A stretch of 60,123 nucleotides of DNA, taken from positions 1 to 60,123 of IMG/VR virus record IMGVR_UViG_3300025853_000086; one strand, 5' to 3'. A model generated the notes under the pieces. It did not search any database. It had not been told where the DNA came from and saw only the letters and a program-made list of their open reading frames with translations. The DNA comes from a virus. Shown piece after piece: positions 8,562-21,238 of the stretch. The position numbers and the translations under genes were made by a program. Each line of letters begins with the position of its first letter. Within the stretch, counting starts at the first letter, position 1.

Positions 8562-8807
8562 TCAGAACAGGTCGTTGTCGGTAGACCATGTTGCTCCTAT
8601 CCCGTAACCACATCCCGAGCAAGCTATTTGACACGTTACTTCAGCCAAGAGCATAAACTCTTTTCCTCCACAGAGCGAGCACACTAGAACATCAACAATT
8701 TCTTGTCTTGTTGTGACTGGGTCTACAGGTGGCTTTTCTCTCTTTCTGAATGGGACAACATTGCTTGTTGCATCCACGGGGGCGTTGGTCTTGTCTTCCA
8801 TACGCAT
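8562..8807 (-). CDS. Zinc-ribbon-like protein
   Basis: This 81-residue protein has CSLCGG near residue 44 and CSGCGYG near residue 63, a two-knuckle zinc ribbon of the kind found in small nucleic-acid-binding proteins. The N-terminus is basic and Pro-rich. Its 5' end overlaps the tail of the upstream gene (8723-9226) by 85 bp, unusually long for this genome; a later start would remove part of the overlap. Confidence 0.6.
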   Translation of the reverse strand: MRMEDKTNAPVDATSNVVPFRKREKPPVDPVTTRQEIVDVLVCSLCGGKEFMLLAEVTCQIACSGCGYGIGATWSTDNDLF

Positions 8808-9226
8808 AGTTTTGCCTTATCATTTATGTAGTAGCGGCGATACGCAGCAATCGGGTCGTGGTCTTTGTACTCAGGGGGCATGGCTTGCGCAAAAGGAGTG
8901 AACCCTTGGGCGGTCAGCTGCTGTGGCGCATTGGTGAGCAGTTGTAAAACTTTTTGACACCCATGCACCCTCCCATACCGGTAAGTGTATTCGTCACAGA
9001 GCGCCAAGCCAAGTTTGAGTAACCATTGGTAGTTGGTCAAGGTTTGGCCTGCCCACAACGTACAAGGATGTTTTTGATGCACCGGCTTGTACGGTCCTGG
9101 TTCGTCGTAGCGCCAGTGTACGGTGGACAGCATTTGGGTGGTCTCTAAGGGCATTTTGACAACGTGTTTGTCGCAATGCCACCGAGCGCATTGTTCGTGG
9201 TCCCAGTCTAAGAGGAATATGTTCAT
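8723..9226 (-). CDS. Conserved phage protein of unknown function (CDKHVVKM family)
   Basis: This 167-residue protein starts MNIFLLDWDHEQCARWHCDK. Conserved blocks include HCDKHVVKMPLETTQMLSTVH, KHPCTLWAGQ, LCDEYTYRYGRVHGC, AMPPEYKDHDPIAAYRRYY. I recall this family from cyanophages and other marine phages, where it has no assigned activity. The many invariant His, Cys, Asp and Tyr residues suggest an enzyme or metal site. The last ~28 codons overlap the next gene in another frame. Confidence 0.7.
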   Translation of the reverse strand: MNIFLLDWDHEQCARWHCDKHVVKMPLETTQMLSTVHWRYDEPGPYKPVHQKHPCTLWAGQTLTNYQWLLKLGLALCDEYTYRYGRVHGCQKVLQLLTNAPQQLTAQGFTPFAQAMPPEYKDHDPIAAYRRYYINDKAKLCVWKTRPTPPWMQQAMLSHSEREKSHL

Positions 9227-9267: not shown

Positions 9268-9417
9268 TTAACGGCGAGATGCGTTCTCATTGCTCTCGTT
9301 TGTTCTGTCCATTTCTTCTAGGATATCGATGAGCAGATACAACTCATGGAGCAAATTACCGAGGTGGTGGTCGTCTATGGTTTCGGTGTCTACTTCCACG
9401 GAAAAGTTAATCTTCAT
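9268..9417 (-). CDS. Small acidic protein, coupled to the HD gene
   Basis: This 49-residue protein begins MKINFSVEVDTETIDDHHLG and continues as a Leu/Ile/Glu-rich helix. Its start lies within the last codons of the HD-domain gene (11-bp overlap), consistent with translational coupling. The function is unknown; it might be a small partner of that enzyme. Confidence 0.55.
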   Translation of the reverse strand: MKINFSVEVDTETIDDHHLGNLLHELYLLIDILEEMDRTNESNENASRR

Positions 9418-9949
9418 CTAGCATACCTATCAGCTGTAGTGCTGGAGCAAACCAAGGCTCGGCGTGGTACTTGGTCAAGTAATTGCCGCCACGCTTAAAC
9501 ACATCAAGAGCAAAGGTGTTGCCCATCTTATATAGGCGATGACAGTGCAGCATCAGCTCGAGTTTGTCGCAAGTATCGCAGATTCCGGTTTCTTCTTCGG
9601 ACAATGGGATGTTTATCCCTAACTCTTGTTCTACTGCTTGCTCTAGCGTAGCCATGCAATCAGCCAGTATGGGATGCCTCCATTTGGTAGTAGCGGGTAG
9701 GTCACCTAGTTCGCCCTCGGGTACATCGTGGTAGAGCATATGCAGTAAGCACTCTTTGCTTGTATCAGGCCAAAGTGTATGCAGTAGCACTGCTGCTCTC
9801 CAAGAATGGGCGGCGACGTCTTGGTGGTCAGCCAGTTCGGGGCGGGTATGGTAACGCTTGACATACCCCCCTTTGAGTTTACGATGCAGCACGGCTAGGG
9901 TAGCTACTCCATCATTGTTGTGTGTTTGTGTTTGAGTCCGCGTGTCCAT
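9407..9949 (-). CDS. HD-domain phosphohydrolase (YfbR-like 5'-nucleotidase)
   Basis: This 180-residue protein has an HD-superfamily metal site: His48 in AAHSW, the His74-Asp75 pair in MLYHDVPEGELGDLP, with Glu78 and Asp83 following as in YfbR-type dNMP 5'-nucleotidases. A later CDKLE supplies the probable last Asp ligand. Such enzymes dephosphorylate dNMPs. In phages with modified DNA, related HD or pyrophosphatase enzymes deplete the unmodified nucleotide; that role is inferred here from the nearby TS-like/hypermodification cassette. It overlaps the polymerase gene by 46 bp. Confidence 0.8.
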   Translation of the reverse strand: MDTRTQTQTHNNDGVATLAVLHRKLKGGYVKRYHTRPELADHQDVAAHSWRAAVLLHTLWPDTSKECLLHMLYHDVPEGELGDLPATTKWRHPILADCMATLEQAVEQELGINIPLSEEETGICDTCDKLELMLHCHRLYKMGNTFALDVFKRGGNYLTKYHAEPWFAPALQLIGMLDED

Positions 9950-11829
9950 GGCTTCTCCGTGAAGGTTTGTTTTGCTTCCCCCCAGTTTGGTCCAAATTCT
10001 GCATCAACTACGGAGGGAACTTCTAGTTGTGCGCAGGTCTCCATTATCTCGGCTATTTGTTTGGCTTGCTGCTCGCTGTGGACGGATACGTCTAACTCGT
10101 CGTGTACCTGTACCATTGGTATTATGCCTTCCTCGTAAAGGGCGACCATTGCAGCCTTGGTCTGGTCGGCTGCGCTACCTTGTATCAACTTGTTGAGAGC
10201 TTTGTAGGTAAATGCCCGTTTGATCCCAGGACCATGCTCTGCATAAGCATCTTGGTAAGTCATAGGTTTCCAACTACCGTAGCGGGTAGGTTCCCATTTG
10301 TCAAACCTACAGCGGCGTCCTAAAAGGGTTCTTATAACCCCCCGCTGACTTGCCCGCCTAATGCAGTGGTCGCTTAACTCTCGTACAAAAGGGACTTTGG
10401 CATGGTAAGTAGCAAACAATTCTTGGGCATCTTCGTATTCTAAGCCGAGGCTTGCGGCGAGCTTTTTTGTGCCCATGCCGTAGAACAGCCCAAGGTTGAT
10501 GTCCTTTGCTTGCTTGCGCGGTACGCCTACGATATCTGCCGCCAATTGGTGGAAGTCCGTCCGTGGGTCTGCTTGGTACTGCTGTGCAAAGTCTGCCGCG
10601 CCTCTAAAGCCCATCAACTTACTGTAATGCACCACTATGCGGGGTTCTTGGCTAGAGTAGTCGAAAGCGCCCCACAGACAGTCTTTTTCTGGTAGGAATA
10701 GGCTGCGTATAAGTGGTCCGAGTTCTGGGTGGCGAGCAGGAATCTGCTGCAAGTTAGGGTTGCTATAACTGAACCGCCCCGTGACAGTGCCGCCGTCGTC
10801 GCTGCGGAGGGGGTGTAGCTCGGCGTGGATTTTACCGTTTATCTCGTGCTTTAGTATGGCGTCTATAAAAGTACCACGCGCCTTTTGGTACTCCCGCGCT
10901 TGGACAATCATTTGCGCTACGCTGTGGTCATGGTTCACTAAGAACCCTTTTGTAAATGACGGCGCTTGGGTCTTTTCCGTTTTGGGGTACGGTAACCCTA
11001 ATTTGTCAAAGGCTTTGGCTACACTTTCCGCCGCCCAGATGTCCACTTCTACTCCGGTGATGCGTTTGACTTCTTTGACCAAAGCGGCCTCGCGTTTTAG
11101 TAAGTCTTGCTTAACGCGCTCAGCTTTGTCTAGGTCGACGTTTACGCCCTGCATCCGCATGGCAATGATGATAGGCGTGATGCGTAGCTCTAAGTCTACG
11201 ATGTCGCCTATATCTTCTTGTATTATTAGGGGTTCGAAATGGTTCCATAACCGCAAAGTAAGGGCGGCATCTTGTTCGGCGTAGGCTCCCACATGGGCAG
11301 CAGGGAGTTTGTACATTTCGGATTTTGGATTAACTCCAAAACTAGCCGCTGCTTCTCTAAGATGAACTTCGGATTTTCGGTCGGATAAGTAGTCCCTTCC
11401 AAGGGAATTAAGTGCATAGGAGAATCTGTTTTCGTCGAGCAAAGGTGCAATAACCATTGTGTCGATGATTCTTCCATGCACTTTGACACCCTCGCGGAGC
11501 AGCCACCCAACATCGTAAGGAGCGTTATGGAAAATGTAATTCCTATCCACCGAGACAACATCTTGTACCCACCGTAGTGTCATTGCTGGGTCAAAGTTTG
11601 GACCAAACTCATGCCTAATAGGAAAGTACCATTGATCGCCGTCCACGGCTACTGCTATGCCGATAATATGCCCGTCGCCTCGTGCCCATCCTGCCCCCAT
11701 AGTCATGAGGTTCGGGTCTTTGGTTTCTAAGTCTATTGCTACTTGTTTGGCAGAACTAAGGTCGGGGTAACCGTCGGGCATAACCCACTCAGTTGGTGGT
11801 TGGAACATTGGGATCTGCATTCCGGTCAT
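9904..11829 (-). CDS. polA: Family-A DNA polymerase with 3'-5' exonuclease
   Basis: This is a 641-residue replicative polymerase of the phage PolA type without a 5' nuclease domain. The exonuclease motifs are visible: AIDLETKDP (Asp33, Glu35), IFHNAPYDVG (about 99-108) and YAEQD (183-187). The polymerase part has motif A FDYSSQEPRI (Asp390), motif B KDINLGLFYGM, and motif C VQVHDELD (His576, Asp577). In motif B the residue equivalent to E. coli Phe762 is Leu446, a substitution associated in the viral-ecology literature with slower synthesis and often with temperate lifestyles. It lies downstream of the base-modification genes and probably copies DNA from a modified nucleotide pool. Confidence 0.95.
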   Translation of the reverse strand: MTGMQIPMFQPPTEWVMPDGYPDLSSAKQVAIDLETKDPNLMTMGAGWARGDGHIIGIAVAVDGDQWYFPIRHEFGPNFDPAMTLRWVQDVVSVDRNYIFHNAPYDVGWLLREGVKVHGRIIDTMVIAPLLDENRFSYALNSLGRDYLSDRKSEVHLREAAASFGVNPKSEMYKLPAAHVGAYAEQDAALTLRLWNHFEPLIIQEDIGDIVDLELRITPIIIAMRMQGVNVDLDKAERVKQDLLKREAALVKEVKRITGVEVDIWAAESVAKAFDKLGLPYPKTEKTQAPSFTKGFLVNHDHSVAQMIVQAREYQKARGTFIDAILKHEINGKIHAELHPLRSDDGGTVTGRFSYSNPNLQQIPARHPELGPLIRSLFLPEKDCLWGAFDYSSQEPRIVVHYSKLMGFRGAADFAQQYQADPRTDFHQLAADIVGVPRKQAKDINLGLFYGMGTKKLAASLGLEYEDAQELFATYHAKVPFVRELSDHCIRRASQRGVIRTLLGRRCRFDKWEPTRYGSWKPMTYQDAYAEHGPGIKRAFTYKALNKLIQGSAADQTKAAMVALYEEGIIPMVQVHDELDVSVHSEQQAKQIAEIMETCAQLEVPSVVDAEFGPNWGEAKQTFTEKPWTRGLKHKHTTMME

Positions 11830-11959
11830 CCTTTTTAATTTTCATGGGCTGCTTACAAGAACATATCGGCCACTTGTTTTTGAGTGACCGGTACGTCTTG
11901 GTTTTTTGCTCCTTGCCGCATTCACAAACAGCGATTACTTCGGTATCTAAACTGGTCAT
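11789..11959 (-). CDS. Small zinc-knuckle protein
   Basis: This 56-residue protein begins MTSLDTEVIAVCECGKEQKT. Cys12, Cys14, Cys33 and Cys35 form a CxC...CxC arrangement suited to one zinc ion, and the C-terminus is basic. Its start overlaps the upstream stop as ATGA, and its last 41 bp overlap the start of polA, so it is probably translated between them. Position suggests a replication accessory role, without direct proof. Confidence 0.65.
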   Translation of the reverse strand: MTSLDTEVIAVCECGKEQKTKTYRSLKNKWPICSCKQPMKIKKDDRNADPNVPTTN

Positions 11960-12288
11960 TTTTGTTTGGATACAAGCTCCGCTTCAACAAGGGTGAGATA
12001 ACGGCGCAGGTCGCGGATGTCGTCGATTACGCCTTCGTCTCTTTGGTCTTTAGTGCAAGCGGCAAAGATGTCCCACCCTTGCTCGGACACTTGCTTTTCT
12101 AGCCTGTCCCACTTACGGGCTAGCATCATAAAAGCACCAATGCCTCCGCGCTTTTTCCAACTGTCGCCGTAGCTTTGCTCAGCTTGGTGGAGTTTGTACA
12201 CGTCCATGTCGGCTACTTGTTGGCACGTCTCCATGAAGCTCGTATAAGTTGCTTTGTCTGGTACTGATGCGTAGTAATTGTTGTCCAT
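11956..12288 (-). CDS. MazG/Nmad1-like all-alpha nucleotide-associated protein
   Basis: This 110-residue helical protein starts MDNNYYASVPDKATYTSFME. The signature YGDSWKKRGGIGAFMMLARK followed by WDRLEK and the later DDIRDLRRYLTLVEAE recalls the Nmad1/MazG-like all-alpha NTP-pyrophosphatase fold, in which acidic residues on paired helices bind metal. I cannot assign a substrate. The start at 12288 follows the TS gene's stop with one base between. Its place between the TS homologue and polA suggests nucleotide-pool control. Confidence 0.55.
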   Translation of the reverse strand: MDNNYYASVPDKATYTSFMETCQQVADMDVYKLHQAEQSYGDSWKKRGGIGAFMMLARKWDRLEKQVSEQGWDIFAACTKDQRDEGVIDDIRDLRRYLTLVEAELVSKQK

Positions 12289-12289
12289 G

Positions 12290-13270
12290 TTACAGTCTCC
12301 TCTCAAACCATTCGGTACAGGCTTTACGCCATGCTTTGTCTTCTATGCACATTGCTGTGAAAAACGCCCCTTCCTTATCCTTACCTTTCCACTGTTGCCA
12401 CGCTTGATACATAGGCACGGCGGTCTCGGCTATATACCTGTTTCTGTACTCATGGTCGCTTGACCCGTCATGCATGAACAACTCTAACTCCTGATCGAAG
12501 GTTGTTGGGTCGTCAACTAAATTAGGTGGTTGGTAGAGCACAATAGAGTCGTCTACGAGTTCGTAGTTGCTGTACTGTGGTTGCATACCTTGCAGCTTGT
12601 CTAATACCTCTACATAGGCGTGTAGATTGTTTGAAAACTGCACATAGTGCCCCACATGTAAACCAAGCATCTGCGCCATGTATTCCAACAACACCGACAT
12701 ATGTACGGCATTAGCACCGTATGCACCCCAGATCATATCGTTGCTGCGGTTTACCACAGTCATGTTAAGTGTTTCGTCCCGGACTTGGAAAAAAATCTGG
12801 GTGTTGCAGGGGTAGTCTTTGCCATCGTTGGTGGTTACTAGGTCATGGTTAGCATCCCACATACTAACCACTGTCCGGCGGTCGTTAGGGTAAGTAGTCA
12901 AGCGATGCATAGCTAACTTGAGTTGGTCTTTACCAAACCAATTGCGCCATCGGTAACCGTAAGCTCCGTGGAAAGAAACACCATCGTCGCTGTAGGTGTT
13001 TATCCTACCGTTGAACTGGTTGATCCATTTGACGTCGTTACGTCCGGCGAGCATCCAAAAGGCTTCCATCAAATGGAAGAAAGGGTTGGCGTCCCGCTCT
13101 GGGTAGAACAAGGCTCGTTCTCTGGAATGCGTGTAAGTAGTAACTACCGGAGTAGGGAACTCTAACACGGGACCATTGCGGGTCTGTACTTGTACTCCCA
13201 TTGCTTCGATCCCTTGCTTGGCAATATACAAAGCCTCGCTTACGTTTCTTGCTCGTATAGTGTGTGTCAT
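12290..13270 (-). CDS. Thymidylate synthase homologue (possible dUMP hydroxymethylase)
   Basis: This 326-residue protein is of the thymidylate synthase/pyrimidine hydroxymethylase fold. It has the paired arginines RRTVVSMWDAN (131-132), the catalytic Cys155 in YPCNTQIFFQV, and RSNDMIWGAYGAN (175-187) with the pyrimidine-recognising Asn187 kept, so the substrate is probably dUMP rather than dCMP. The usual His after the catalytic Cys is Asn here. Known family members make either dTMP or 5-hydroxymethyl-dUMP; the operon context (glycosyltransferase and hypermodification gene) favours the latter, as inference. The ATG at 13270 overlaps the upstream stop (ATGA), so I prefer it to 13297. Confidence 0.8.
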   Translation of the reverse strand: MTHTIRARNVSEALYIAKQGIEAMGVQVQTRNGPVLEFPTPVVTTYTHSRERALFYPERDANPFFHLMEAFWMLAGRNDVKWINQFNGRINTYSDDGVSFHGAYGYRWRNWFGKDQLKLAMHRLTTYPNDRRTVVSMWDANHDLVTTNDGKDYPCNTQIFFQVRDETLNMTVVNRSNDMIWGAYGANAVHMSVLLEYMAQMLGLHVGHYVQFSNNLHAYVEVLDKLQGMQPQYSNYELVDDSIVLYQPPNLVDDPTTFDQELELFMHDGSSDHEYRNRYIAETAVPMYQAWQQWKGKDKEGAFFTAMCIEDKAWRKACTEWFERRL

Positions 13271-14550
13271 TCTTGTACTCCCATTGCTGCTTGCCAAATA
13301 CCAAAAAATTCTAACTTCTTATGGCACTTTTCCTGTAATTGTTTTGTTTCCTTTCCTGTCGCACAGCCTTGTGTGCTGTTGGCTAGGTCTATGTACTCTT
13401 GGGCTACGGCGGTATCGGCAAAGCGTTGGACAGCCGTGACATTGTTGTTAGCAATGGTTGTCCATTGGTTGCTATCGGTTAAGCCATTGTCGATTATGTC
13501 GGCAAACTCTTGGGGGGTTGCTGCGGCAGGTACCTCTATGTAGTTGACGCCCGCCGTGAACACCTTGCTGTTGTTCATACCTAGGTCGGTTGCCACAGGC
13601 ACCGCTCCGCAAATCATGGCTTCCATAGTTGTACGATTAAAATGCGCACCAAAGGCCGAATACTTTTTAGACCAACTGGGGTCTATCTGTAGCTTGCTGT
13701 CCCGCAGGAGGTGGTAGTGCATATCAGTAGGGATGGTGCCTACATACTCCATGCCGTGACGCAGGGCTTTGTCCCAGATACGGTCACCGGTTGCGTCAAA
13801 ATACTTAGGTTTGCATTTTTCTTGGCTAGTCATGTAGCGGTACTCTATCCCTGCGCCGCCTACTCGCTTAGGTTCTTTTGTTTTTAGGTGTGGTATGGCA
13901 CGGATTAACGTATCTACCCGCTTCCATGCTTTGAATACCTGCACTGCACAAAATCCGGCACGGGTTTCAAACTTCGACATAGGCACCGCATTAGTTAGGT
14001 CAAAGGGGTTTACAATCATTTTGCGGGGTATAGCAATACACTCCGCACTGTGATACGCAGACTCGTGTACGCAAACCATCGCGTGAAAATGATGCCCAAC
14101 CCAAGCCAGATGCGGGTACAGTTCGGGCAGGTTACCATCGTGTATGATGGCTATGTTTTTAGTCCCGCTGTTGTACAAGTCTAGCCATTCGTTAACGGCG
14201 GCGTTTTCTTTGTTGACGGTAGGCACAGGGATATGCCACAGGACGAAGTCGTACCCGCTGCATTTGTTTTTGAACTTAGCTCGCTCGTTAGGGTCTAGGT
14301 AAGCCACTTTGTTCTCGTTAGGCCACCACCATCCCCTAGCCTGATGGAAGAACAATCCTGTGCCGTGCTTGCGGTACTCTGCTAACACCTCTGGTTTTGG
14401 TCCACGGGTAACACCAAACTTCTTTTTAGGGCACAGCTTGACAAAGTCTACAGTGTGGCCTAGCTTGACAAAACCTGCTGCTAGGTTCTCCGCGTGGTTG
14501 ATAATACCGCCATAATCTTGGATGTCGAACAGGGTCATGAGTATTTTCAT
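13267..14550 (-). CDS. GT-B glycosyltransferase (GT4-like)
   Basis: This 427-residue protein has the N-terminal pattern of GT-B enzymes, MKILMTLFDIQDYGGIINHA then ENLAAGFVKLGHTVDFV. The C-terminal nucleotide-sugar site has FNRTTMEAMICGAVPVATD, matching the Glu-containing EAM.cG.PVva block of GT4-type enzymes. It would transfer a sugar from a nucleotide donor; the acceptor is unknown. Start and stop overlap both neighbours by 1-4 bases (TAATG and ATGA), tying it to the TS homologue and the hypermodification protein. A DNA base is therefore a plausible acceptor; a virion or host polysaccharide is the alternative. Confidence 0.8.
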   Translation of the reverse strand: MKILMTLFDIQDYGGIINHAENLAAGFVKLGHTVDFVKLCPKKKFGVTRGPKPEVLAEYRKHGTGLFFHQARGWWWPNENKVAYLDPNERAKFKNKCSGYDFVLWHIPVPTVNKENAAVNEWLDLYNSGTKNIAIIHDGNLPELYPHLAWVGHHFHAMVCVHESAYHSAECIAIPRKMIVNPFDLTNAVPMSKFETRAGFCAVQVFKAWKRVDTLIRAIPHLKTKEPKRVGGAGIEYRYMTSQEKCKPKYFDATGDRIWDKALRHGMEYVGTIPTDMHYHLLRDSKLQIDPSWSKKYSAFGAHFNRTTMEAMICGAVPVATDLGMNNSKVFTAGVNYIEVPAAATPQEFADIIDNGLTDSNQWTTIANNNVTAVQRFADTAVAQEYIDLANSTQGCATGKETKQLQEKCHKKLEFFGIWQAAMGVQE

Positions 14551-15452
14551 TAGTTGACAGCTCCTATAACAGGTGTCTTTGTTGTTGCTTGCTCCACACG
14601 GAACAGGCTCCGTGGTGTGCCCTGTTTTAGGCGCACTCTTTCATACTTGTCCCACTCGCACAGGCTATGCTCTATGGTGCGCATGTCTACATCTAAAACA
14701 GGAACGCATGAATCTTTTAAATGACGTCTTGCTACACACAGTAGATCAACCATCTCGTCGTTGGCTTGCTTTGAGTTAAGAGATTTTTTAAGGTCACGTT
14801 GGTGGATACGGTTCAATCCGCGTATTGCTCCAGGACCGGCGTTTGCCCATGTGAACTTGTCATAAGGCCAATGTAAGACAGGCGTGTAGCTGAGGTCGGT
14901 AACTACCTCATAAGCCATAAAACCCCCGCCTCCCCAACCTTTATATTGTCCTAACATTTTGTGCGTCAGTTCTAGGCTTCGGTTTTCTTGTATACTTTTG
15001 GTAATCTTGGTGCGGTCTTCCCAGATAGGGGTAAGGAATTTGTCGACTACTACCTCAGACTTTGGTAACTTGAGTCCTTGGTTAGTGATTATATAAGCTC
15101 CGGTGAAGGTTCTTTGCTTGCGAGCAATGCGTTGCTCTATCAGGCGCTTGGTTTCTTCTGGGTTCCAGTCGGTTACCCAACCGTGCTCTTCTGCAAACTC
15201 TGTAGTGCCAACCATGCGAAACAAACAAGTGTTGAACACTATCTGCTCGGCAGGTCTTCGGTCTTGTAGGTTAGTCCAGTTTTTGCGCATCCAAACGGTT
15301 ACCCTGTCGTTCTCGCGAAAAGGGTTAGTGAACTTGTAGTTGGCTAAGATAGGATCAGCTGTCCAAGGCGGGGGGTTACCCGCCGCCCTGTTCAGGTAGA
15401 TTTGGTGCCGCTCTTTTATCCAACCGAAAAAACTTTCTATAGCTTCGGTCAT
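14550..15452 (-). CDS. DNA base hypermodification protein (5-hmdU kinase helical domain / aG/PT-pyrophosphorylase-like)
   Basis: This 300-residue protein matches the family annotated as 5-hmdU DNA kinase helical domain or putative DNA base hypermodification protein. Conserved blocks: ERHQIYLNRAAGNPPPW (about 14-30), YKFTNPFRENDRVT (39-52), the helix-hairpin-like GWGGGGFMAYEVVTDL (172-187), GPGAIRGLNR (206-215) and LCEWDKYERVRL (264-275). Relatives process 5-hydroxymethyl-uracil in phage DNA. I see no P-loop, so it is not itself a typical kinase. It lies directly upstream of the glycosyltransferase (TAATG overlap) and close to a TS homologue, a coherent base-modification cassette. Confidence 0.75.
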   Translation of the reverse strand: MTEAIESFFGWIKERHQIYLNRAAGNPPPWTADPILANYKFTNPFRENDRVTVWMRKNWTNLQDRRPAEQIVFNTCLFRMVGTTEFAEEHGWVTDWNPEETKRLIEQRIARKQRTFTGAYIITNQGLKLPKSEVVVDKFLTPIWEDRTKITKSIQENRSLELTHKMLGQYKGWGGGGFMAYEVVTDLSYTPVLHWPYDKFTWANAGPGAIRGLNRIHQRDLKKSLNSKQANDEMVDLLCVARRHLKDSCVPVLDVDMRTIEHSLCEWDKYERVRLKQGTPRSLFRVEQATTKTPVIGAVN

Positions 15453-15462
15453 GTTAGGTTCC

Positions 15463-16008
15463 TTATTTTAGTTCAATGGCTCCGTGGTCGATGGCGATCT
15501 GTATATCGGTGCCACCTCCGGGAGAAGGCTGCAAAGCGCGTAGGAGAGTCATTGCTTCGCCCACGGTTGGGCTATTCATAACTACGACCATGTTGCGGTG
15601 CCGATTAGTACCCTGCCGGATAGGTGGCTCGGCTAGCAGTGGGACAATAGAAAGTTTTGGGTCAAAGCGTTTACGGGTTTCAACTTTCTTTTCTACGGGT
15701 TGGGTTACTTGTTCGGGTTGGGTCATTGATTCCTCCACTGGGGGTGTCCAAACAACAGCTTTAGTATCTACAAAATCGTGCAGGGTTTCAACTAATTGTT
15801 GTTGGTTTACAAAAGACATGGGTTTGCCGATAGCTTGCCACACCGAATGCAATCTTTCAAAAGAGTAGTGTTTAAGCAAGTTATCGGGGTTGTTGCCTCG
15901 ATACACAATAGACTTGTGGTTTATGGCAGGACATTGGTTGGCTATCTGCAGATTCTCAAAAGCAAGCAGTTGATAGCCTGTGGCGTTTTCACAAATTGCG
16001 TAGAACAT
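15463..16008 (-). CDS. Hypothetical protein with C-terminal TVGEA-type domain
   Basis: This 181-residue protein starts MFYAICENATGYQLLAFENL at 16008 after GAAAGG; the longer reading to 16035 would use TTG and enter the upstream hairpin. The middle (about 90-120) is Thr/Pro/Glu-rich and probably a linker. The C-terminal third (RQGTNRHRN..., TVGEAMTLLRAL, IQIAIDHGAIEL) resembles a small domain that closes many phage proteins. The function is unknown; it precedes the hypermodification gene by 10 bp. Confidence 0.6.
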   Translation of the reverse strand: MFYAICENATGYQLLAFENLQIANQCPAINHKSIVYRGNNPDNLLKHYSFERLHSVWQAIGKPMSFVNQQQLVETLHDFVDTKAVVWTPPVEESMTQPEQVTQPVEKKVETRKRFDPKLSIVPLLAEPPIRQGTNRHRNMVVVMNSPTVGEAMTLLRALQPSPGGGTDIQIAIDHGAIELK

Positions 16009-16011
16009 GGG

Positions 16012-16028
16012 ATCCCTTTCTATGGAAT
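16012..16028 (-). promoter_or_regulatory. SD-presenting hairpin leader
   Basis: On the RNA strand ATTCC pairs with GGGAT (one G-U pair) around ATAGAAA, just upstream of the gene starting at 16008. It keeps the ATAGAAAG loop motif of the other leaders with different arms. Confidence 0.45.
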
Positions 16029-16030
16029 AA

Positions 16031-16061
16031 GGCAAGGTTCATTATAGTAATGAACCTTGCC
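16031..16061. terminator. Perfect 14-bp inverted repeat between two genes
   Basis: GGCAAGGTTCATTA (16031-16044) and its exact complement (16048-16061) flank a 3-bp centre, between the DUF932 gene (stop at 16081) and the gene starting at 16008. As RNA it forms a long stable hairpin without a U-tract. It may act as an attenuator, RNA-processing site or mRNA stabiliser. Confidence 0.6.
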
Positions 16062-16080: not shown

Positions 16081-17109
16081 TCAAGCTACTTTAGCGTACT
16101 CCAGTGCTTTAGTCAACGCTTGGCGTTTGGTATTTGCACCGCTACCGAACCACGCACTGTGCAGAGCGTTGCCTTGCTCGTGGGAACGCTTCTGGTGATC
16201 CACTATGTAGGTCACCGCATTGAGTGCGCCCCACCATGTTCCCTTAGCAGATTCTAACCCTGCTCCGGGACTAAGGTCAACTGCGTCGCGTACCATTTGT
16301 GCTGTGTGTTTGAACTCATCGCGCAGCGGCGGCAGCTTGCTAATGTCAGCAGCTTTGCCACGCTCTATCAGCGCATTGGGTTGGAATAGCTCCGCAATGA
16401 AGTTATCTAACTGGTCGCCTTTAGCCTTTTTCTTAGCTAAGAACTGGGACTGCTCTTGGAACGCTTGCATTTGGTTACCGGACAAGCCTAGGGCTTCCTC
16501 GGCTGCGCGTTGTATTTCCTCGTCGAACATTTGTAGATGCAACACACGGAACTTGTTGCCTTGCTGTCCTAGTGCCATAGTCAGGGTATTGTTACACACC
16601 ACTCGTATGGGCGTGAACATAATGGTCATCGCTTTGCCTACTTGGTGGCTGTTGTTGAGCAGGAGGTAGCCTTCGACTTCGTCACCCCCTGCAAGGGTGA
16701 ATCCTTTGGCAATCTTAGCCAAGCCCCAAACATCCTTGCCTCCTTTTAAGCTACCCGCCGTTTCCATAGTCATGTTACCTGCTTCGGTAAACTTTTTGAA
16801 GAACGACATAACTTCTGCATTCTGGAACGGCACATAACTTTCACCACAGTTGGACAGGACTTTGTTGTCGCTGTCGCGGACTAGGAAGTGTTGGTCTGGT
16901 GCGCGGATAAAACTAGCCTCGCCAGTTGGGTCGACTATATTCCAACAGTCGGGCTTGTCTACAGTGTACGCCGGACGCTTGCTAACTGTCCAGTCTATTT
17001 CTGCTGCGATAAGCATTTCCTGTGGGGTCATTGTGGAATCGACTGCGTTACCTAAACCATGCCAAGGGACTTGGTTAGCGTAGGCCATTGTTTCTACTTG
17101 GTGTGCCAT
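16081..17109 (-). CDS. DUF932 phage/plasmid-like protein
   Basis: This 342-residue protein is typical of DUF932. The N-terminus MAHQVETMAYANQVPWHGLG with the invariant PWHGLG, the TPQEMLIAAEIDWTV segment, and the C-terminal region with WWGALNAVTYIVDH and HQKRSHEQGNALHSAWFG match the family over its full usual length. Members occur in phages and plasmids; the biochemical role is unknown. It starts a translation unit with its own hairpin leader (17114-17131). Confidence 0.85.
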   Translation of the reverse strand: MAHQVETMAYANQVPWHGLGNAVDSTMTPQEMLIAAEIDWTVSKRPAYTVDKPDCWNIVDPTGEASFIRAPDQHFLVRDSDNKVLSNCGESYVPFQNAEVMSFFKKFTEAGNMTMETAGSLKGGKDVWGLAKIAKGFTLAGGDEVEGYLLLNNSHQVGKAMTIMFTPIRVVCNNTLTMALGQQGNKFRVLHLQMFDEEIQRAAEEALGLSGNQMQAFQEQSQFLAKKKAKGDQLDNFIAELFQPNALIERGKAADISKLPPLRDEFKHTAQMVRDAVDLSPGAGLESAKGTWWGALNAVTYIVDHQKRSHEQGNALHSAWFGSGANTKRQALTKALEYAKVA

Positions 17110-18200: not shown

Positions 18201-19718
18201 TCAACAGGGTAGGGAATAACCCTTACTAGACATGGGGTGGATTAAATGCAGGTTCTGCTTTGCTCGGGTTAGGCCAACATAAAAAACCCTCGCCTCGTCT
18301 TCGTCATGGTGGGGCATATTACGCCACATAGAATAGGGCTTGGTCATAGTATCGGTAAGGAGTAAGACGTTATCTGCTTGCGCACCCTTAGAAGAATGAA
18401 TGGTGGATATACGAATGCGAGGTTCTTCTAATAACTTTTCCCCCTTACGGAGACAGGCTTTAATGTAGCCCTTGTCTTGGTCTGTTATCTTACCCATGCC
18501 CTTATCCCAAGGTAGGCTGTGCAATAACCCGTGGGATTGTTGTAAGTCTGCAAGACTGTAGAACACACTATCTTCACCGTCGGGCATTGTTTTACACCCG
18601 TAGGCTATCTGGGTGTGGAGCATCATTTGTTGGTACACCAACCGGACATGCTCGGCGGGTAATCTGGCCCCTTCGCGTAAGTTTTCCCACAAGCGGACAG
18701 CTTCTAAAACACGGCTATCTATACTGCGGCTACCGTTAAACGAATACAAATGCCCCCGCCGCCTGACCTGCTCTTCTATCTGTTGCGCACCCTTGGTTGT
18801 CCTACTTAATAACAACCATTCTCCTTGGGAGATGTTTACCTCCTCCGAGTGACGGTACCAGTTAATAACACCCTGCTCATCTTTAGGGGTAAAGCTCTTA
18901 GGTCTGCGACCAACGACCCGCTCAATCACTTGTTTGCTTAGGGTGTGGTGTAAATGCGGAATGCGATAGCTCTTGTTGAGCAGGGTGACATTGCCCTGTA
19001 GGTTTACAAAGTGTTCTACGTCTGCCCCTGCATACCGGAAGATAGCTTGGTCGTCATCACCGGCGACATAACAAATCTTACTGTTCTTTTGCAGCAAAGC
19101 AACCATCTCCCATTGGATGGGAGAAAGGTCTTGGGCTTCGTCTATGAACACCACCTCTAACTTGGGAGCAGCTTCTCTTTTCAAAAACAGCTCGAGCATT
19201 CCGGTGTAATCGTACAAACTGTTTTGCTCTTTCCAATGGTTTAACCCACGCTGAACATAGTCTACACGTTCCCAATCGGTTTTACGGGGGACAATACTGT
19301 CGTTGTATAGTTTACGCAAAGGTTGGCGCATGATACGCGCCATGTTGATTATTTCTAAAAACTTGTCCCCGTAACCAAAGTCTTTGTATGGGCCTTGATC
19401 TATCTGCGGTCCGGAATAAAACTTACCTATCTTTAACCAATCGGCAATCTCTTGGTACTTGGCAGGGTTCATAATTTGAGAGTGGGTCAGTCCGGCTTGT
19501 AAAAAAGCCAGACTGTGGAGCGTTCTAAAATAAGGGAGGTCTAACTTATTAAGACTAAACTTCTTCATCGCTCGGGATACCGCCTCTTCCGCTGCCCTGC
19601 GTGTAAAAGCAAAGTAGCCAATACGATCCGGCGGCACACCCTTTTCTAAATACTCTTCTACCAAGGACAACAGTTTAGTGGTTTTACCTGTTCCGGGAGG
19701 TCCTAGAATAATATTCAC
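18201..19718 (-). CDS. UvrD-like superfamily 1 DNA helicase
   Basis: This is a 505-residue SF1 helicase. Walker A GPPGTGKTT is at 6-14, motif Ia is GYFAFTRRAAEEA, motif II is VVFIDEAQDLSPIQ, motif III is AGDDDQAIFRYAGAD, motif IV is LNKSYRIPH, motif V is STIHSSKGAQADNVLL, and motif VI is FYVGLTRAKQNLHL. It would translocate on ssDNA 3' to 5', as UvrD/Rep. It sits between the AEP primase (1-nt overlap) and the RecB-like nuclease, and is probably a replisome or recombination helicase; the genome has no recognisable DnaB-type ring helicase. Confidence 0.93.
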   Translation of the reverse strand: MNIILGPPGTGKTTKLLSLVEEYLEKGVPPDRIGYFAFTRRAAEEAVSRAMKKFSLNKLDLPYFRTLHSLAFLQAGLTHSQIMNPAKYQEIADWLKIGKFYSGPQIDQGPYKDFGYGDKFLEIINMARIMRQPLRKLYNDSIVPRKTDWERVDYVQRGLNHWKEQNSLYDYTGMLELFLKREAAPKLEVVFIDEAQDLSPIQWEMVALLQKNSKICYVAGDDDQAIFRYAGADVEHFVNLQGNVTLLNKSYRIPHLHHTLSKQVIERVVGRRPKSFTPKDEQGVINWYRHSEEVNISQGEWLLLSRTTKGAQQIEEQVRRRGHLYSFNGSRSIDSRVLEAVRLWENLREGARLPAEHVRLVYQQMMLHTQIAYGCKTMPDGEDSVFYSLADLQQSHGLLHSLPWDKGMGKITDQDKGYIKACLRKGEKLLEEPRIRISTIHSSKGAQADNVLLLTDTMTKPYSMWRNMPHHDEDEARVFYVGLTRAKQNLHLIHPMSSKGYSLPC

Positions 19719-21238
19719 TAAAGAATGCCTTCGTTTGGTAGCTCAGGTAACGGAATGGACTCTTCATACTCTTGGAAGTAATCCTGTGGTAAAGACCAGA
19801 CATGCACTCCCTTGCCCCGTACCCGCCAAAACATCTTTTCGGCTTGCAGGTCTTGCAGCCGCAAAGTAATCTTGTTGGACGTGTAGTGGTTAAAGTCGTT
19901 CACGTGCAGGTGCTTTTTCAAGTCTTTTACTTGGAACCACACCTTATCGTCAACCCAGACAGCAACCCCTTGCAAAATGTCTTCGCGCTCTTCACCTTTA
20001 GCTCTGTCACAAGCAAAAGCATGGAGCAGGTCTTCAAATTCTCCTTTAATAGTAGCATCCGGTGGGACTTCTACTATAGTTAAATTGTCCAACAATAACT
20101 GAATTGTTGTCTGCCACGCCCGTTGATTTACCGTAACAGGGAACCTGTTGATTTGCGACACACATTCTTTTTGAAAAAAGTTTTGGCTAGTCAGCGCATT
20201 AGTACTCAGTTCTACACGGTTGCCATCCACGTTAAGAATCCAGATAGGTGGGTCGCCATCGATTTTAGTAAGACTGGAAAGGTCATTGGTCACACCCGTC
20301 GGCCCGACACCATACTTGCGTCTTTTACAAACAGCTTTGTCGCAAAAGGGCTTTATGGGTTGGTCTTCGCACTTGTAAAAATACTCTTTCTTTTTTAGCT
20401 GCCGGATTATTGTACCTACCTCGCTGTGGCCTAGGGGCGGGTGTAGGTAATCCATGTTGTAGCGTTGGAGTAGCGTTTCCCAGTTGTCCTCGTCGTACAG
20501 GCGAGCATACACACCTAAGTTGAATAGGGCATTGTTCCGCGAACCTTCACCAAATCCTTTACTGCATAAGTGTTGTAAGCAGGGAGGACCCTCTTCTAAG
20601 ATACCTTCCTTAGTGCCAAAGGACATGTTCAGCTTGCGGAACTTAGCAGGAGTGGTAACAAAGTCTTTGGCGTAGGTTATAAACTGCTCTGGGGTTAAAG
20701 CTACGCCATCGTCGTCGTAACCGTAGCGGGTGGATTTATCACCCGAGTGGTACGGCATATTCAAAAAGTTACCTGTGTCGCCTCGCTCTACAAGAATGGT
20801 GGACTGCTTGGGGAAGATCTCACACCCAGAGTGGCCTAACGCCGCACTGAGCTCTGCCATCTTGCGCTGGACTTCCTCTGCGGGGATGGCTTCTGTTAAA
20901 AATATCCAGACGTGCGCCCCACCACTCTTTGTTCTCCCCACTACGGCGGGTATCTTGTTGGCGCGGAGGGTGGTTACTAAATCTTTTTGGACTACGTCGT
21001 ACTGGTCTATATCTATTGCGCCCCAACGGCAAAGGTTCTCGCTGTTGATAGGGATAATACCAAGGCCGGTTCCACCTTTTAAATGCTCTTCCCACATGTC
21101 GGCGGTGGTTGGCTCGCGTATAACTTTTGCTGTGCCTTGTTTCTTGCCGTCGCGGTCGCGGGTGGTACTAACAACATAAGTCCCGTGGGCTATGTCGCTG
21201 CCTTTGAATAACTCATAAAATTCGTGTGCTAGTGTCAT
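19718..21238 (-). CDS. TOTE-type archaeo-eukaryotic primase
   Basis: This 506-residue protein has the AEP primase domain of the TOTE-conflict/phage type: GAIDIDQYD (Asp76, Asp78) as metal ligands, SGGAHVWIFL (105-114, His109) and EIFPKQS further on, then GNFLNMPYH. The middle carries a Cys/His stretch (KCEDQPIKPFCDKAVCKRRK) that may bind zinc, and the C-terminal ~170 residues look like a winged-helix-rich module. It would lay primers for PolA. It is coupled to the SF1 helicase by a 1-nt overlap, forming a primase-helicase pair instead of a T7 gp4-like fusion. Confidence 0.85.
   Translation of the reverse strand: MTLAHEFYELFKGSDIAHGTYVVSTTRDRDGKKQGTAKVIREPTTADMWEEHLKGGTGLGIIPINSENLCRWGAIDIDQYDVVQKDLVTTLRANKIPAVVGRTKSGGAHVWIFLTEAIPAEEVQRKMAELSAALGHSGCEIFPKQSTILVERGDTGNFLNMPYHSGDKSTRYGYDDDGVALTPEQFITYAKDFVTTPAKFRKLNMSFGTKEGILEEGPPCLQHLCSKGFGEGSRNNALFNLGVYARLYDEDNWETLLQRYNMDYLHPPLGHSEVGTIIRQLKKKEYFYKCEDQPIKPFCDKAVCKRRKYGVGPTGVTNDLSSLTKIDGDPPIWILNVDGNRVELSTNALTSQNFFQKECVSQINRFPVTVNQRAWQTTIQLLLDNLTIVEVPPDATIKGEFEDLLHAFACDRAKGEEREDILQGVAVWVDDKVWFQVKDLKKHLHVNDFNHYTSNKITLRLQDLQAEKMFWRVRGKGVHVWSLPQDYFQEYEESIPLPELPNEGIL

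Follow-up and report, generated by a model that had tools for sequence, protein, structure and literature searches.

A candidate kinase-free route to glycosylated 5-hmdU in environmental phages, with an exchangeable glycosyltransferase slot

Known systems and the layout of the locus

The DNA of phage M6 contains hypermodified thymidine (PMC6449724), and TS and HMUDK_hel orthologs cluster together in M6-like phages. The M6/PaMx11 locus (Pseudomonas phages, Mesyanzhinovviridae) holds a TS-type dUMP hydroxymethylase, HMUDK_hel, an HD nucleotidase (gp59, beside the TS) and PolA, in an order similar to that of the locus described here. Unlike our locus, M6 also carries a P-loop kinase (gp54), an amino acid:DNA transferase or ADDT (gp51) and the tailoring proteins radical SAM (gp53) and PALP (gp52), and its HMUDK_hel-TS interval is filled by Nmad5 (gp56) rather than by a glycosyltransferase (GT). 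With the kinase-dependent hypermodifications as a whole (M6, ViI, phiW-14, SP10), our locus shares a predicted TS-type hydroxymethylase but neither PF18748 (5-hmdU DNA kinase) nor PF18724 (ADDT).

Other relevant systems involve sugars. The T-even alpha-GT, beta-GT and TAGT glycosylate, after replication, a hydroxymethylpyrimidine that comes from the nucleotide pool, as we propose here, but their substrate is hydroxymethylcytosine, whereas here hydroxymethyluracil is predicted and the GT is not a TAGT. Kinetoplastid base J (glucosylated 5-hmdU) is chemically similar to our predicted product, an O-glycosylated 5-hydroxymethyluracil; JBP1/2, however, oxidise T within DNA (PMC6449724), whereas a dUMP hydroxymethylase is the predicted source of 5-hmdU here. 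In Yersinia phage YerA41, thymidine apparently bears a large, possibly oligosaccharide, substitution of about 1 kDa (PMC9023294). The closest published observation that we found is a similar gene co-location in HTVC023P-type pelagiphages, whose authors (2022), in the passages considered here, read the hypermodification genes as M6-like, potentially broadening function (PMC9599517). Exchange at the slot, a missing kinase and the direct addition of a sugar to 5-hmdU do not come up in those passages (PMC9599517), and the glucosyltransferase mentioned there would be TAGT-type going by its name, whereas ours belongs to another family.

We analyzed a 60,123-nucleotide stretch of viral DNA (IMG/VR record IMGVR_UViG_3300025853_000086), here called the window. 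At 12290-15452, three minus-strand genes overlap as the first-pass annotation had described: HMUDK_hel (14550-15452) runs into the GT gene (13267-14550) through TAATG, and the latter into the TS homologue (12290-13270, with its ATG at 13270) through ATGA. Nearby on the same strand lies an HD 5'-deoxynucleotidase (9407-9949), correctly called at first pass, which is YfbR-like (PF12917, 2.6e-9), corresponds to M6 gp59 and is a probable nucleotide-pool partner, as well as a Family A DNA polymerase (9904-11829, minus strand; PF00476, 5.2e-62); polA is downstream of TS in M6 too. Downstream of our TS is also a conserved 110-aa protein (11956-12288, minus strand), kept beside TS in most related loci; its initial label, "MazG/Nmad1-like," is not supported: it has no Pfam or NCBIfam match and weak PHROG matches only. 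At the position of the M6 kinase is a 190-aa protein (15463-16035, minus strand) with neither a Walker A motif nor a P-loop, and with zero matches in Pfam and PHROG searches. A bacterial genome scan matched only two metagenome-assembled contigs, and we therefore leave the host unnamed.

The operon proteins and the lack of a kinase

Profile searches returned the expected kind of match for all three proteins. The TS homologue (326 aa) matches PF00303 (E 5.6e-24) and the thymidylate synthase family phrog_5131 (E 8.3e-109), and it is 46% identical to a TS/deoxyuridylate hydroxymethyltransferase of M6-like phages. When aligned with E. coli ThyA, its Cys155 corresponds to Cys146 and its Asn187, rightly singled out earlier as the dUMP-selecting residue, to Asn177; equivalents of ThyA C146, R166, S167, D169, N177, H207 and Y209 are retained, while those of W80, W83, L143 and H147 are missing along with the ThyA C-terminus. 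The active-site pattern is identical to that of M6 gp58. Because of these losses, taken as the sign of a hydroxymethylase, the protein is assigned to the dUMP-hydroxymethylase type, a prediction that draws on homology as well as on the pattern shared with gp58.

The 300-aa protein had been placed in the 5-hmdU hypermodification family, and it is indeed no member of an unrelated one: it matches PF18723 (HMUDK_hel), a family name that the first pass had overlooked, at 1.6e-52 (179 bits, cut-off 25) over positions 1-277 of the 281 in the profile, and is orthologous to M6 gp55, of the same family. The kinase and the amino acid transferase are relatives of this family but do not belong to it. The predicted structure (AlphaFold2, pLDDT 91.9) matched, in BFVD, HMUDK_hel proteins, the SP10 5-hmdU DNA kinase fusion and an ADDT (E 8.5e-4, TM 0.54). 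The suggestion of a DNA-glycosylase-like fold is weakly supported: a viral EndoIII matched at E 0.17 (probability 0.97, TMt 0.51), while a Foldseek search of PDB gave zero significant matches. We rejected the protein as the kinase itself, M6 having its kinase in gp54 and its HMUDK_hel ortholog in gp55, and as an ADDT, the profile comparison not being significant (E 0.06, 16 columns) though the structures are alike. Kinase- and GT-associated HMUDK_hel lineages have 26 residues in common, D186, R211, E266 and D268 among them, and 0 that are GT-specific. With the same core residues found beside either partner, HMUDK_hel could be engaging 5-hmdU DNA on behalf of whichever enzyme follows, an idea that we put forward tentatively, at slightly less than even odds.

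The 427-aa protein is a GT-B glycosyltransferase, as had been claimed: it exceeds the curated cut-offs (in brackets) of PF00534 (8.9e-9; 35.6 bits [26.4]), PF13692 (3.8e-8; 34.1 [27]) and PF13524 (25.7 [25]), with the matches falling in the C-terminal nucleotide-sugar domain. Its best NCBIfam hint, the EpsE exopolysaccharide GT4, is far below cut-off. About 50 viral loci hold a relative, in linkage with HMUDK_hel and/or TS; tblastn against 50,697 records of isolated phages gave zero matches, and PF20691 (TAGT) has zero matches in the window record.

PF18748 was above cut-off in 0 of 58 viral records (the window, whose record is possibly incomplete, and 57 others), and the same count holds for PF18724; both profiles responded in the positive controls M6, CN1 and RHph_TM26. 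Sub-threshold ADDT matches do occur, and they land on HMUDK_hel genes. As first noted from the letters alone, no P-loop DNA kinase is visible: among the called window ORFs, GxxxxGK[ST] occurs only in a UvrD-type helicase (18201-19718), besides a spurious 61-aa frame. A kinase may be undetected, diverged or supplied by the host. Tet_JBP (PF12851) had 0 matches in 16 records, in a search where no positive control responded.

Exchange of the slot among related phages

Comparison of about 120 related viral loci revealed that the slot between HMUDK_hel and TS has four mutually exclusive fillings: the window-type GT-B (class A); a TAGT (PF20691, to which the T6 DNA glucosyltransferase belongs) with a radical-SAM/SPASM protein (class B); another GT-B-like family, in some loci accompanied by an FkbM methyltransferase (class C); and a fourth family (class D). 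The class B TAGT matches PF20691 (8e-14) and phrog_842, beta-glucosyl-HMC-alpha-glucosyltransferase (1.4e-44); the T6 enzyme of this family glucosylates DNA cytosines (PMC13390438, PMC13216743). The class D profile, for which 4 sequences were available, matched nothing convincing and its predicted structure has a pLDDT of 38; we therefore do not claim it as a GT.

When HMUDK_hel proteins were clustered at 90% identity (n=60 types), 49 of the 60 had a slot-family gene (47 without class D) and 6 had a kinase and/or ADDT by BLAST, while a slot-family gene alongside a kinase or ADDT was found in 0/60. Searches that used just the GT profiles led back to the same neighborhood, with HMUDK_hel and/or TS nearby in 21/21 class C and essentially all class A loci; two phages whose slot is empty still have the GT at another site in their genomes. 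Two genomes of about 60 kb each (L059 and L064) share about 91-97% identity as far as the HMUDK_hel stop and 89-94% identity again from shortly ahead of TS onward, and between these conserved flanks one has a GT-B and the other a class C GT plus FkbM: a difference that is, on the alignment, a recent slot swap. The HMUDK_hel tree requires 14 changes of slot state. The cultured Brevibacterium phage LuckyBarnes has the order TS-TAGT-TAGT-HMUDK_hel, with both GTs matching PF20691 and with kinase and ADDT (PF18748, PF18724) absent. This repeated exchange of unrelated sugar-attaching enzymes suggests that viral DNA is given a chemical disguise that changes fast.

A predicted pathway and its alternatives

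We consider it likely that 5-hmdU is glycosylated directly in DNA, by a kinase-free route without a phosphorylated intermediate. Such a shorter pathway, with the GT acting on 5-hmdU, had been raised at first pass without recognition of the modular slot and its several GTs, and the comparison (GT swaps, absence of kinase and ADDT from the 58 records, an independent gene order in a cultured phage) now supports it well. We infer the catalytic steps, the sugar and the part played by HMUDK_hel as follows. The TS homologue would convert dUMP to 5-hmdUMP, the HD nucleotidase assisting by lowering competing nucleotides; 5-hmdUTP, which the Family A polymerase would need to incorporate, would replace some or all dTTP during DNA synthesis; HMUDK_hel would bind 5-hmdU DNA or present it to the modifying enzyme, as it would to the kinase in M6 and SP10-type phages; and the GT would take a sugar from a nucleotide-sugar donor and attach it directly to the hydroxymethyl oxygen of 5-hmdU within DNA. 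In related phages unrelated GT families are exchanged and the radical-SAM/SPASM or FkbM proteins probably decorate the sugar further, so sugar identity would be a variable trait. More broadly, the chances seem even that this is a plug-in system in which a constant dUMP hydroxymethylase and HMUDK_hel, as universal 5-hmdU-DNA-engaging subunit, serve an exchangeable effector slot (unrelated GTs with or without radical-SAM or methyltransferase here, kinase plus amino acid transferase elsewhere).

The chemistry could instead still be M6-like, with an unrecognized kinase acting on 5-hmdU, HMUDK_hel transferring an amino acid or other group and the GT glycosylating that group. The many invariant polar residues of HMUDK_hel are enzyme-like, and both its structural match to the ADDT protein and the sub-threshold ADDT matches fit this version; we nevertheless find it rather unlikely, given that neither kinase nor ADDT rose above cut-off in any of the 58 records, that the sole Walker A protein among the called window genes is a helicase, that no tailoring genes like those of M6/PaMx11 (PLP, FAD or acetyltransferase) were recognized at the locus, and that the HMUDK_hel-ADDT profile comparison was not significant.

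That the GT is a passenger acting on the host surface or on virion proteins (for superinfection exclusion, for example) is improbable. It does have a GT4-type domain, frequent in surface polysaccharide synthesis, which is the main use of its broad family, and in two loci (L058 and L063) the slot is empty and the GT lies several genes away. The role of a surface-modification gene is disfavored, however, because the same slot holds unrelated GT families that include the DNA-glycosylating TAGT; in addition, searches with GT profiles recover HMUDK_hel and/or TS loci, the gene overlaps both its neighbors, and GT and kinase/ADDT are mutually exclusive. Least probable of all, and very much so, is an ordinary thymidylate synthase supplying dTMP to a phage whose DNA is free of 5-hmdU: catalytic and dUMP-binding residues are conserved, but the W80, L143 and H147 equivalents and the C-terminus are gone, the nearest relatives, of the M6 type, carry the annotation deoxyuridylate hydroxymethyltransferase, HMUDK_hel co-occurs, and no other PF00303 gene is found in the record.

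If direct glycosylation holds, glycosylated 5-hmdU would be present in a large environmental phage group and in at least one cultured phage, made by a route shorter than the characterized thymidine hypermodifications, and its sugar chemistry would shift by gene exchange, as though host restriction systems exert pressure. The poorly understood HMUDK_hel family would gain a testable general role and the slot would be a source of new DNA glycosyltransferases; under the plug-in arrangement, what is made would amount to the phage version of base J, its sugar differing between phages. LuckyBarnes, which is in culture and grows on B. iodinum ATCC 15728, renders the reading directly testable. A DUF932 protein (16081-17109, minus strand; PF06067, 4e-47), a recurrent neighbor of the cassette, is found near HMUDK_hel in that phage as well.

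The operon and its TS homologue

On the minus strand of the window lie, in order of transcription, the HMUDK_hel protein (300 aa, 14550-15452; PF18723, 1.6e-52), a GT-B glycosyltransferase (427 aa, 13267-14550; PF00534/PF13692, over cut-off) and a TS homologue (326 aa, 12290-13270; PF00303, phrog_5131 thymidylate synthase); the tight overlap of these genes claimed in the first-pass annotation was borne out by TAATG and ATGA joints. TS is followed by genes for a 110-aa protein, a family A DNA polymerase and an HD nucleotidase resembling YfbR. The record (60,123 bases, classed linear) represents a tailed phage, with terminase, portal, head and tail genes. It also encodes a primase-like protein (19718-21238) that matches the AEP domain of the TOTE conflict system (PF22548) and a Pyr_excise match (8723-9226; pyrimidine dimer DNA glycosylase family, PF03013), the latter a cassette neighbor in many related loci too.

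Aligned with E. coli ThyA, the window TS retains the nucleophile Cys146 (its Cys155) and Asn177 (its Asn187), as well as Arg166, Ser167, Asp169, His207 and Tyr209, and lacks Trp80, Trp83, Leu143, His147 and the ThyA C-terminus. Pseudomonas phage M6 gp58 keeps and lacks the same residues, and the closest phage relatives are M6-like enzymes (46%) annotated as thymidylate synthase/deoxyuridylate hydroxymethyltransferase; judged by family, the homologue is therefore likely a hydroxymethylase of dUMP.

The HMUDK_hel protein

In M6 the HMUDK_hel member is gp55. On one side of it lies gp54, a P-loop kinase (PF18748), and on the other Nmad5 gp56; gp51, the amino acid:DNA transferase (ADDT, PF18724), is encoded upstream. 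Since kinase, transferase and HMUDK_hel are separate M6 genes, the 300-aa protein is ruled out as either kinase or transferase. Its predicted structure (AlphaFold2, 36 sequences; pLDDT 91.9) is nearly all-helical and found nothing significant in the PDB; among viral models, the top matches were other HMUDK_hel proteins, an SP10 protein and an ADDT protein (E 8.5e-4); a viral endonuclease III scored E 0.17. The SP10 protein (637 aa, named 5-hmdU DNA kinase) is probably a fusion, because about half of it aligns. Kinase-associated and GT-associated members have 26 residues in common and no GT-specific ones, which suggests a single partner-independent task, hypothetically engaging 5-hmdU in DNA.

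An interchangeable slot between HMUDK_hel and TS

Among 80 HMUDK_hel-bearing viral loci (identity of aligned representatives 48-67%), the usual order is DUF932 - 190-aa protein - HMUDK_hel - slot - TS - 110-aa protein - PolA - HD. Where both flanking genes are present, the slot holds the window-type GT-B in 27 loci, TAGT (PF20691) plus a radical-SAM/SPASM protein in 24, a second family in 14 and a fourth in four. The slot TAGT also matches phrog_842, beta-glucosyl-HMC-alpha-glucosyltransferase (1.4e-44), and the TAGT family puts glucose on DNA cytosines in T6 (PMC13216743, PMC13390438). The second family, accompanied by FkbM methyltransferases in several loci, has no Pfam match; profile-profile comparison aligns it over its full length with the GT-B family (E 1.6e-4, 307 columns, probability 51%). 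The fourth (332-338 aa; L079:1417-2415 and loci L080, L081 and L082) has no database match.

The radical-SAM/SPASM protein, tied to the TAGT version (locus L008:9935-10987 and similar loci) and also paired with the second-family GT (L118, L119) and a distant window-type GT (L172), may modify the sugar or linkage. An NrdR-like zinc-ribbon protein lies between HMUDK_hel and TAGT (L008:8903-9202 and 17 related loci).

The HMUDK_hel tree, built by a quick method and with some long branches, requires 14 changes of slot state; its starred branches alone force several changes involving the window-type GT-B, TAGT and the second family. The sharpest swap pair is L059 (60,037-base record) and L064, whose genome (60,299 bases) is probably complete because its ends are redundant over 105 bases at 99%. 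Their DNA is ~91-97% identical as far as the HMUDK_hel end, shows no similarity within the slot (GT-B versus second-family GT plus FkbM), and resumes identity (89-94%) just upstream of TS. Loci L133 and L113 repeat this pattern at ~75% identity.

Kinase, ADDT and cultured phages

When HMUDK_hel proteins are clustered at 90% identity into 60 types, a slot-family gene accompanies 49 of them (in two cases the fourth family) and BLAST similarity assigns kinase and/or ADDT to six; no type combines a slot-family gene with kinase or ADDT. Across 58 viral records, one of them the window and 29 at least 50 kb long, neither PF18748 nor PF18724 exceeded cut-off, while the positive controls (M6, CN1 and RHph_TM26) were found; sub-threshold ADDT matches were HMUDK_hel genes in both cases with coordinates compared.

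In reverse searches begun from the GT profiles, allowing for contig-end cuts, HMUDK_hel and/or TS lay near the second-family GT in 21 of 21 loci and near the window-family GT in essentially all of the 53 matches listed; among these loci are distant lineages with the order GT - HMUDK_hel - TS. In both empty-slot phages (L058, L063) the record contains a window-type GT at another place (L138, L139), which lies several genes farther upstream, next to an oppositely oriented 479-aa gene.

Brevibacterium phage LuckyBarnes is an independent cultured case of the cassette (gene order TS - TAGT - TAGT - HMUDK_hel); DUF932 is encoded close by, and the phage genome has neither PF18748 nor PF18724. Apparently new, relative to the openly licensed literature, are the lack of kinase and ADDT, a slot filled by several families, the precise junctions of the swap, the parallel in LuckyBarnes and the reading of direct 5-hmdU glycosylation in DNA. 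In YerA41, the thymidine substitution is large, possibly an oligosaccharide (PMC9023294).

Two very distinct groups of phages have DUF932 genes near the cassette (window 16081-17109; LuckyBarnes L094:7625-8626). In Acinetobacter phage nACB2 (L095), HMUDK_hel lies next to TS, a protein with a macro domain and another that weakly matches phosphomevalonate kinase, an arrangement that may be another variant.
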